This document shows positions 10,724 through 12,835 of a DNA stretch of 29,439 nt, one piece after another (positions within the stretch are counted from its first letter, which is position 1; each line of letters starts with the position of its first letter). The notes beneath the pieces are model-generated. The model had not been told where the DNA came from, searched no databases, and was given only the letters and a program-made list of their open reading frames with translations. The translations under genes were made by a program, and so were the position numbers. The stretch comes from a virus. The stretch lies in the IMG/VR virus record IMGVR_UViG_3300042691_028523, positions 1 to 29,439 of that record. One strand, written 5' to 3'.

Positions 10724-10860
10724 TGGCTGTCAAAGCCAAGACTGCCGCTACGGCCAAGCTGTTCCGCCGCCAACCACCCAAGCGCACGCGGCAGGGCAAT
10801 GGGCAGCACAGCAAGCCCAGCCATGGGCGCAAGCTGAACCGAGGCCAAGGGCGTGGCTGA
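10723..10860 (+). CDS. tiny basic protein, 45 aa
   Basis: This 45-codon frame encodes a very basic peptide (MAVKAKTAATAKLFRRQPPK, ending GRKLNRGQGRG). It starts inside the stop of the preceding tiny gene (TGATG) and overlaps the start of the MuF-type gene by eight bases. Such a charge suggests DNA, RNA or virion binding, for example a minor head component. Short basic ORFs at this place between capsid and MuF genes are easily missed. The evidence is coupling and composition only. Confidence 0.5.
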   Translation: MAVKAKTAATAKLFRRQPPKRTRQGNGQHSKPSHGRKLNRGQGRG

Positions 10861-12835
10861 TCTCTCCGCGCAGGTCGAGGAGTTCCTGCGCAATGCCTTG
10901 CGGCAGAAGAAGCTGGAAGACCGGCTGATCCGCCAGGCGCTGCGCGATCTGCGTCAAACCCTCATCGCTGTCGAGCGGGTGATGGGCAGCAGCGGTGTGC
11001 TCAGCGTGGGCCCAAACCGCGAGCGCACCATTCAGGCGGTCGTCACCGCCGTGGCCAAGAGCGTGCAGGACTCCTTCGGCGTGCCGCAGCTGGCCGCACT
11101 GCAGGAGGCCTTGACCCCGTTCGTGGAGCAGCAGCTGGGCTTTGCGCGGCGCATGGTCACCATGGCCGGCGGTGAGCTGGTCAACGAGGGCGCCGTGGCC
11201 GCCAGTGGCGCCCAGGTGCAGCGCATCGTCAACGATGCCGTGGTGGCCGGTAAGACGCTGAGCACGCAGCTGAGCAGCGCGCTGCCGGCACTGGTGGCCG
11301 ATCGCGTTGAGCGCTTCATTCGGCTGGGCTTGTCGGATGTGGGCGGTGAGACCTTTGCCACCTACCAAGACGCGGTGGTGCGCACGACGGAGAACAACGT
11401 TGAGGCCCTGATTCGCACCGGCGTGCATGAGGTGGGCAGCGCGGCGCAGCAGGCGATCTATGAGTTCGAGACGGACCCGGCCTGGATGGGCCCGGAGGGC
11501 TTGGTGTGGACAGCGGTGCTGGATTCCAACGTCTGCCCGATCTGCCTGAAGCTGGACGGCAAGCGGTTCCCGACCGAGTACCGCAAGGTGTCACCGCATC
11601 CGCAGTGCGTTCTAGGCGATACGCCCGTTATCGCTGGAAGCGTTGCCGCTGCGGTGCGGTCGGTATACAGCGGCAATGTCGTCACTATCGGCACGCATGG
11701 CGGCCGGAACCTTTCGGTTACCGAAAACCACCCAGTGCTCACCGCCAACGGATGGAAGCCGGCCAAGGCAATCACAGAGGGTGACCAGCTCGTCTGCCAC
11801 GGCATCCCAAACCCGGTAGCGAGCGTCAATCCAGACCTCAATCAGCGCCCAACCACGGCTGAAGAGCTTTTCACGCTTGCTCTCCAGCAACCTTCTGTGG
11901 AAATCGGTGCTGTGCCAGCCGCCGCCATGGACTTCCACGGCGATGGAGCCGGGATGCACGGCGAGGTCAACATTGCATGTGTGAACCGGGAACTGCTGCT
12001 GCACGGCCAGTCCCCGTGCGCGAAGCATGTCGGCCAGGCGCTGCTCGTTGGCGCTGATGTGCAACTGACGGACGTAGTTGACCTCAGCACGCTTGATGCG
12101 TTCCTCTTCGCTATGCACGCGGCCGCGACAGGCCTCGTTAGCGCTAGCGACTTGCTTGCGGCGCTGCTCAGGGGTGAGCTGACTCCACTTGAGGGTCTCC
12201 GCCTCGCTTTGGCTGCGCGGTGTGATGCCCGCTTTGATGAGCCGCTTGCGGATGGTGCCGCGTGCGACTCCAAGGCGTTGGGCGATCTGGTTCTCGCTCA
12301 AGCCAGATCGGTACAGCTCGACAATGACGGCAATGTCCACCTTGGGCCGATGCCTGACCTCAATGCCTGCGGCGTCAAGGCAGGCTTTGATGGTGTAGAA
12401 GCGGCACCGTTGCTGCTTCATGATTTCGGCAAAGCCCAAGCCGGACTGGTAGAGCTGGACAATGTGATCAGCGTTGAGATCGGGGCGCGGCATGAGATAC
12501 CCGTGTATGACTTTTCTACCCTCAGCGGGGCATATTTGGCTGATGGCATTGTAGTGCACAACTGCCGCTGCTACCTGCTGCCATGGAAGTGGCGCAGCGA
12601 AGACATGACCGACCCCAGCGGCAACAAGGTGCCGCCCAAGCGCCCAGCGGATGGCGATGGCGCCGAGCAGGCCCTGAGCTTCAAGGTGGCGGCCAAGCAG
12701 TGGGTCAAAGACAACCCCGACACCGCGCAGGCCATCTTCGGCAAGAAGCTCGGCCAGCGCCTGGTGGACGGTGAAATCGGCTTTGACAAGGCCGTCAAGC
12801 TCTGGTCGGCACCGAAGAAGCCGCCGGCAACTTAA
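10853..12835 (+). CDS. MuF-type head morphogenesis protein interrupted by an intein
   Basis: The 660-codon frame encodes a minor head protein split by an intein. The N-extein (residues 1-251) is helical and ends in the MuF signature (WTAVLDSNVCPICLKLDGKRFP ... SPHPQ). The C-extein (571-660) continues CRCYLLPWKW and a charged helical tail. Joined, they restore the family's HPxCRC motif and give a normal 341-residue protein. MuF-type proteins join the portal vertex in small copy number and act in head assembly or DNA ejection. The intein lies exactly in the conserved motif, the usual choice for selfish elements. The GTG at 10853 overlaps the preceding tiny gene by eight bases. Confidence 0.9.
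   Translation: MADLSAQVEEFLRNALRQKKLEDRLIRQALRDLRQTLIAVERVMGSSGVLSVGPNRERTIQAVVTAVAKSVQDSFGVPQLAALQEALTPFVEQQLGFARRMVTMAGGELVNEGAVAASGAQVQRIVNDAVVAGKTLSTQLSSALPALVADRVERFIRLGLSDVGGETFATYQDAVVRTTENNVEALIRTGVHEVGSAAQQAIYEFETDPAWMGPEGLVWTAVLDSNVCPICLKLDGKRFPTEYRKVSPHPQCVLGDTPVIAGSVAAAVRSVYSGNVVTIGTHGGRNLSVTENHPVLTANGWKPAKAITEGDQLVCHGIPNPVASVNPDLNQRPTTAEELFTLALQQPSVEIGAVPAAAMDFHGDGAGMHGEVNIACVNRELLLHGQSPCAKHVGQALLVGADVQLTDVVDLSTLDAFLFAMHAAATGLVSASDLLAALLRGELTPLEGLRLALAARCDARFDEPLADGAACDSKALGDLVLAQARSVQLDNDGNVHLGPMPDLNACGVKAGFDGVEAAPLLLHDFGKAQAGLVELDNVISVEIGARHEIPVYDFSTLSGAYLADGIVVHNCRCYLLPWKWRSEDMTDPSGNKVPPKRPADGDGAEQALSFKVAAKQWVKDNPDTAQAIFGKKLGQRLVDGEIGFDKAVKLWSAPKKPPAT
11606..12562 (+). mobile_element. 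intein (319 aa) in the MuF-type protein
   Basis: The element begins at Cys252 and ends at Asn570, before Cys571. Block A is CVLGDTPVIAG (252-262). Block B is NLSVTENHPVL with Thr290 and His293, followed by GWKPA and EGDQL as in Hint domains. Blocks F and G are IPVYDFSTLSGAYLADG and VVHN, ending His569-Asn570 before Cys571. All residues needed for protein splicing are present: Cys1, the TxxH pair, penultimate His, terminal Asn and +1 Cys. Between about residue 318 and 548 the + strand reading has no LAGLIDADG or HNH motif. Instead the - strand there encodes a homing endonuclease. The sense product of that stretch would be a linker inside the intein. Confidence 0.92.
11612..12493 (-). CDS. homing endonuclease encoded antisense within the intein (HTH + Vsr/EDxHD-like)
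   Basis: On the strand opposite the intein a 293-codon gene starts at ATG 12493 and stops at TAG 11612-11614, wholly inside the intein. The protein has two helix-turn-helix units (about residues 7-44, IVQLYQSGLGFAEIM..., and 52-90, IVELYRSGLSENQIAQRLGV...). A nuclease domain follows: SANEQRLADMLRARG (Glu150), CNVDLAV (Asp176), IAVEVHGGGWHS (Glu187, His189, His194), REKLFSRGW and LIEVW. That is the pattern of Vsr-like/EDxHD homing endonucleases, known from phage inteins and introns. Third positions are strongly GC, so it looks like a real gene. Its codons coincide exactly with sense codons, and it contains no TTA, CTA or TCA codon, which would create stops in the intein. Confidence 0.85.
   Translation of the reverse strand: MPRPDLNADHIVQLYQSGLGFAEIMKQQRCRFYTIKACLDAAGIEVRHRPKVDIAVIVELYRSGLSENQIAQRLGVARGTIRKRLIKAGITPRSQSEAETLKWSQLTPEQRRKQVASANEACRGRVHSEEERIKRAEVNYVRQLHISANEQRLADMLRARGLAVQQQFPVHTCNVDLAVHPGSIAVEVHGGGWHSTDFHRRLLESKREKLFSRGWALIEVWIDARYRVWDAVADELVTLCDCLGRLPSVGGEHWVVFGNRKVPAAMRADSDDIAAVYRPHRSGNASSDNGRIA

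Follow-up and report, generated by a model that had tools for sequence, protein, structure and literature searches.

A phage MuF intein with a putative Vsr-fold homing endonuclease gene on its antisense strand

The window analyzed here is a viral DNA of 29,439 nucleotides (IMG/VR record IMGVR_UViG_3300042691_028523, positions 1–29,439, one strand). Its sense ORF 10853–12835 (+) encodes a MuF-type head protein with an intein inside. The head gene is organized as follows (here and below, a slash within a motif marks the point of insertion):

10853–11605, + strand: MuF N-extein, 251 codons ending in SPHPQ (PF04233, E 1.3e-4; phrog_241, E 9e-15), with its border set by empty alleles
11606–12562, + strand: intein of 319 residues, placed before C-R-C (PF14890, E 1.4e-7; TIGR01445; TIGR01443; Hint fold at both ends; exact empty sites)
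11606–11608, + strand: Cys1 of block A, the N-terminal splicing nucleophile, the same residue in 42/42 sense inteins
11720–11731, + strand: block B, T-E-N-H (T39–H42), with T39 and H42 invariant among 42 inteins
12503–12562, + strand: C-terminal splicing blocks F and G, V-Y-D ... H-N; nearly all variation in codons 301–319 falls at sense position 3 (pos1/pos3 0.23)
12563–12835, + strand: MuF C-extein, first residues C-R-C, including the stop codon, from the ORF reading and empty alleles

The intein has the motifs of the class-1 type, namely an N-terminal Cys, a block B TxxH and a C-terminal HN (H318–N319) that is followed by Cys+1 of the C-R-C motif. Residues C1, T39, H42 and N319 are invariant among the 42 inteins compared. 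Since intein-less close relatives, with N-exteins 69–86% identical to that of the window, read SPHPQ/CRC with zero gap, the borders of the window intein are exact. An earlier note on this DNA had placed a full set of splicing blocks within the HPxCRC motif of a MuF gene, and its placement was correct to the base. Empty alleles at SPHxx/CRC number 45. AlphaFold predicts a Hint fold at both ends of the intein (pLDDT about 90 and above), and the structural matches of the sense product are inteins (GyrA, RecA and VMA). The two Hint halves would rejoin the MuF head protein by protein splicing. The intervening region is different in character: residues 133–266 of the sense product are mostly of low confidence, and the sense frame has no confident match to any Pfam family besides Intein_splicing and MuF. 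A sense-strand endonuclease in the intein middle, considered as a candidate, was ruled out by this lack of a family match and the largely low-confidence fold; its absence had already been claimed from the letters, and the relatives likewise have no recognized sense endonuclease.

The opposite strand of the intein carries a long ORF (12493–11612) that is contained entirely within the element:

11612–12493, − strand: putative antisense homing endonuclease gene, 293 codons plus stop (ATG at 12493, stop at 11612–11614)
12371–12472, − strand: helix-turn-helix (HTH) 1, antisense residues 8–41 (AlphaFold helices 8–16, 21–28 and 32–41; resolvase-type HTH matches)
12233–12334, − strand: HTH 2, antisense residues 54–87 (PF02796, E 1.3e-5; PF13384, E 1.6e-5; helices 54–62, 67–74 and 78–87)
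11687–12064, − strand: Vsr-like nuclease core, antisense residues 144–269 (1cw0, Z 13.2, rmsd 2.0 over 115 residues; 3r3p, I-Bth0305I, Z 10.5)
12044–12046, − strand: putative catalytic E150, kept in 47/47 relatives
11966–11968, − strand: putative catalytic D176, kept in 47/47 relatives
11933–11935, − strand: putative catalytic E187, kept in 47/47 relatives
12548–12553, − strand: weak −10-like hexamer TACAAT (tentative), 60 nt upstream of the antisense ATG

The antisense protein, modeled by AlphaFold with 47 relatives (mean pLDDT 88), consists of two HTH units and a nuclease core, and this core superposes onto the Vsr structures 1cw0 and 1vsr (Z 12.1 for the latter) and onto the homing endonuclease I-Bth0305I. 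Pfam matches are to HTH families and to the MTES_1575/Vsr group (MTES_1575, E 8.8e-9; Vsr, 0.02). The score against REase_MTES_1575 (PF18741) is 35.8 bits, under the curated cut-off of 38.2, and by this measure the antisense protein is related to the family but not a member of it. The earlier note had read two HTH units and a Vsr/EDxHD-like core in this frame. Profile matches and predicted structure bear out the HTH units, the Vsr fold and the homology to nucleases; the EDxHD set is matched in part, as the putative catalytic acids are invariant and the histidine, H194, is incompletely conserved (38/47 relatives). The last ∼23 antisense residues, together with an antisense GEHWVV motif, mostly mirror sense Hint codons. 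This C-terminal motif was rejected as a part of the endonuclease, being largely the mirror image of sense block B. By its predicted fold, the product of the antisense ORF is homologous to Vsr-type nucleases, and the enzyme probably cuts DNA and spreads the intein. The PHROG head-protein profile phrog_15127 aligns over the entire window intein (11606–12562), including its middle, and is apparently a model of the antisense gene's sense shadow.

The two frames lie codon-on-codon, such that antisense position 3 faces sense position 1. In the exteins and the C-terminal splicing codons, relatives differ mainly at sense position 3. In the intein middle, the differences fall mainly at sense position 1, which is antisense position 3: changes at sense positions 1/2/3 are 88/34/71, 94/48/75 and 30/9/14 between the window and its relatives L003, L006 and L007, respectively. 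The corresponding identities of the middle are 65, 60 and 84% for the antisense reading, compared to 54, 50 and 68% for the sense reading, so that the antisense reading is the better conserved of the two. The same flip in codon position is seen in eight other pairs. A sliding map locates antisense constraint at intein residues 76–250, mixed constraint at 26–75 and sense-only constraint at 301–319. In one phage, tblastn gave an E-value of 2e-29 for the antisense protein, compared to 2e-14 for the sense reading of the same intein. These patterns indicate that the middle is read from the antisense strand and the splicing ends from the sense strand. The antisense ORF could otherwise be a by-product of GC-rich coding DNA, in which a codon-on-codon frame is left open and the sense middle serves as a functional linker; in favor of this, the window has a high GC content and contains many other long antisense ORFs. 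However, changes in the middle are synonymous in the antisense frame about twice as often as in the sense frame, or more, and the confident Vsr fold with its invariant catalytic residues contrasts with the poorly predicted sense middle.

A tblastn search with the antisense protein identified relatives in 122 phage records, where the places concerned are annotated as head, structural or hypothetical proteins; the arrangement, for which the earlier note had proposed such a search, recurs in other MuF genes. The endonuclease is named in no inspected record. Relatives were also found in 315 viral contigs, counted with a profile from the smaller sequence set A2, and in two plasmids, one from a Chloroflexota bacterium (37% identity). 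The element occurs in phages of Gamma- and Actinobacteria as well as in the Chloroflexota plasmid. At 107 of 108 loci (about 84 non-redundant), a stop-free sense frame lies opposite the endonuclease in one identical register, compared to 4 to 38 stops in the remaining two opposite frames. Since the loci were collected by means of the antisense protein, openness of the sense frame was no criterion of the search. The only endonuclease codons that would give stops in the head gene are TTA, CTA and TCA; synonymous choice can therefore keep both frames open. None of these codons was observed in the endonuclease genes, compared to 389 expected from the codon usage of each host gene. Both frames are open even in relatives at 36–45% GC. 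The codon-position pattern and these AT-rich relatives rule out a chance antisense ORF, and we regard the by-product explanation as scarcely credible. An N-terminal splicing domain is present at 83 of the 84 non-redundant loci, before the MuF CRC motif. The exception to the common register is a free-standing relative in Acinetobacter phage P1068 (L021, 2806–3699), annotated as hypothetical, which contains 12 TTA/CTA/TCA codons and is convergent with, and abuts, an intact intein-less MuF gene. The arrangement, as judged from these loci, is a widespread architecture and not a single oddity.

Several loci depart from the common pattern. In Virus Rctr197k (L198, 3013–3897), the same type of intein and antisense gene lies in a cytidine/deoxycytidylate deaminase-like protein (PCVA/CAK); its annotation as a head morphogenesis protein probably stems from the intein. 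Escherichia phage fEg-Eco06 (L199, 3001–3894) carries the element at a second MuF position, STT/CRARDG, upstream of the usual CRC site. The terminase gene of Vibrio phage 1.238.A (L201, 349–4077) is apparently broken within its intein, with the N-part in gp11 and the Hint C-part in gp12, about 0.5 kb apart; this intein is possibly fractured or split. Among 369 cases in gammaproteobacterial genomes, one was true, the others being HTH-only, nuclease-only or inteins without this antisense gene. In one bacterial ORF (L217, 664–2391), a segment similar to the HTH part of the endonuclease is repeated several times, and the nuclease core seems to be missing.

The Gordonia phages Nordenberg (L200, 2866–3687) and Barsten (L202) have an intein at the same MuF site, with a middle unrelated to the Vsr-like type. 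Its antisense frame, in the same register, is LAGLIDADG-like, with a weak phmmer match to I-MsoI (E 6e-4); the product matches phrog_5046 (E 3.6e-15; labeled HNH in PHROGs) and no Pfam family. Changes between the two middles at sense positions 1/2/3 are 43/4/9, and the antisense identity is 94%, compared to 70% for the sense reading, a sign of strong antisense selection. Of 50 changes, 41 are antisense-synonymous and 5 sense-synonymous, an imbalance that also counts against an antisense frame left open as a by-product. No further LAGLIDADG-type relatives were confirmed in the viral contigs. An unrelated antisense endonuclease at the same site points to repeated evolution of the arrangement. 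It is likely that the placement of a homing endonuclease on the antisense strand is a general and recurrent feature of phage inteins, which has arisen at least twice (Vsr-like and LAGLIDADG-like), codon-on-codon and in many instances with a full set of antisense expression signals in the splicing codons, and that many inteins filed without an endonuclease are fully mobile two-strand elements.

In the family as a whole, a common place for the antisense start codon is block F (H-V-Y-D/N-L), with a GGAGGT-like sequence ahead of it. The block F Leu is encoded by CTC in 42 of 51 cases, compared to 9.8 expected from usage in the same gene; this choice provides GGAG, a Shine-Dalgarno sequence, on the antisense strand. 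Upstream of the antisense start and relative to synonymous recoding of the C-terminal splicing codons, exact TATAAT (30/77, 5.6 expected), TTGACA (17/77, 2.0 expected), a perfect TTGACA-N16..18-TATAAT (10/77, 0.11 expected) and the same with at most one mismatch (22/77, 1.0 expected) are all in excess; these statistics count related sequences as independent, which overstates significance, and the effects are large. Only two conventional inteins were usable as a negative control for the promoter. The counts indicate that in many relatives, the window not among them, synonymous codon choice has placed a consensus sigma-70 promoter and a Shine-Dalgarno sequence within the C-terminal splicing codons.

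The proposal of the earlier note that the endonuclease can be expressed independently of the head gene is thus supported for the family; the window itself has a weak −10-like hexamer, TACAAT, at whose place close relatives have TAGAAT or TAAAAT. The region upstream of the window ATG has no −35 match, no good promoter and no good Shine-Dalgarno sequence; a promoter was rejected for this copy, and in its clade the antisense start lies a few codons further in than the family norm. These missing signals are what would be expected if a genuine composite were decaying in the window, with the endonuclease no longer expressed and splicing alone maintained. Decay does occur in the family, as the copy in Rhodococcus phage REQ3 (L196, 3010–3684) has a shorter antisense ORF without the HTH units and an Ala that apparently replaces the intein Cys1. 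The window frame, however, is intact over its 293 codons with all catalytic residues present, and the comparison with L007 (84% antisense, 68% sense identity) reveals strong antisense constraint. We consider decay in the window unlikely, and infer that its endonuclease is expressed.

The presence of the intein is patchy and does not follow the host gene tree. We scored 54 genes on a tree of the N-extein, of which 9 carry the intein and 45 lack it. Intein presence requires 8 changes on this tree, compared to a mean of 8.5 after shuffling of the labels, and well-supported branches force at least 7 of the 8. Between Snoke (E. coli) and LSPA1 (Salmonella), the N-extein differs at 78 of 789 sites, and the N-terminal Hint region plus middle at 22 of 816. 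The simplest reading of this contrast is a recent transfer of the element, although dual coding may contribute to the low divergence of the inteins. The two HTH units, and the internal antisense promoter in relatives, would also suit a Vsr-fold protein kept for a role other than homing, such as repression of the MuF gene, antisense RNA regulation or repair. Such a role is improbable given that the nearest solved enzymes are Vsr and a homing endonuclease, that the catalytic acids are invariant, that presence is patchy with exact empty sites in near-identical genes, that the free-standing relative adjoins an intein-less MuF gene, and that Snoke and LSPA1 are much more alike in intein DNA than in extein DNA.

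The locus is thus very probably a composite mobile element, in which a sense-strand intein and an independently expressed antisense Vsr-fold homing endonuclease together permit homing into the empty MuF site; splicing, expression in the window, cleavage and homing are deduced from sequence and predicted structure. On the sense strand, the two Hint halves of a class-1-type intein would splice the MuF head protein together, and the linker between them would be the reverse complement, codon on codon, of a separate homing endonuclease gene. An antisense transcript would yield the endonuclease as a free protein whose production does not depend on late expression of the head gene; in many relatives, this transcript would start from the sigma-70 promoter, and be translated from the Shine-Dalgarno sequence, hidden in the C-terminal splicing codons. 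MuF genes without the intein would then be cut by this enzyme, at the conserved HPx/CRC site or close to it, and the element would be copied in during repair. The earlier note had proposed such a composite, with splicing and homing on opposite strands. Three kinds of contrary evidence were looked for, namely lack of nuclease homology in the antisense ORF, a conserved sense-strand endonuclease in relatives and higher conservation of the sense reading, and none was found; structure prediction gave both the Hint fold at the sense ends and the Vsr fold for the antisense protein that the note had called for.

Intein biology would gain an architecture in which splicing and homing are uncoupled onto opposite strands, such that the timing and amount of endonuclease would no longer be tied to a late structural gene. 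The element is also an unusually clean natural sense-antisense overlap of about 300 codons, with selection measurable on both strands; the codons of one protein contain the promoter and ribosome-binding site of another. As the antisense enzyme is unnamed in the inspected records, standard annotation misses real genes. The element is small, is found in phages of E. coli and Salmonella that can be cultured, and lends itself to direct tests.

I-Bth0305I and the EDxHD (Vsr-like) homing endonucleases are encoded in introns or beside split inteins, and we know of none that lies antisense within an intein. I-Bth0305I has its Vsr-fold core in common with the antisense protein, and the EDxHD motif is partly matched. 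A 2025 preprint by Gosselin, Arsenault and Gogarten reportedly treats, by its title, actinobacteriophage inteins and non-canonical architecture. It may overlap with the present findings, perhaps including the Gordonia cases, and priority is therefore uncertain. Our literature searches, whose scope left out most subscription papers and preprints, returned no intein with an antisense endonuclease. An intein in F of a Mu-like prophage of Methylococcus capsulatus, reported in 2004 without a recognizable endonuclease, sits like that of the window in the Mu F (MuF) head-assembly gene (PMC517821). The Snoke capsid morphogenesis intein was published and annotated solely as an intein, with no endonuclease named (PMC6776784); our tblastn search found that it and the nearly identical LSPA1 intein, both in a MuF-type gene, carry the same antisense Vsr-like gene as the window. 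The closest case in the literature covered is the ShiLan insertion element, a hidden HNH endonuclease in a phage methylase gene, whose report cites the 2025 preprint for overlapping frames (PMC11855218). In both systems, the insert is open in the frame of the host gene and a homing endonuclease occupies another frame. The ShiLan endonuclease, however, lies in the third frame relative to the methylase and is read from the same transcript; the insert is not an intein, nor an intron, and no ribosome-binding site is detectable in it (PMC11855218). In contrast, the element described here is an intein, its endonuclease gene lies on the opposite strand, and many relatives supply that gene with a promoter and a ribosome-binding site.
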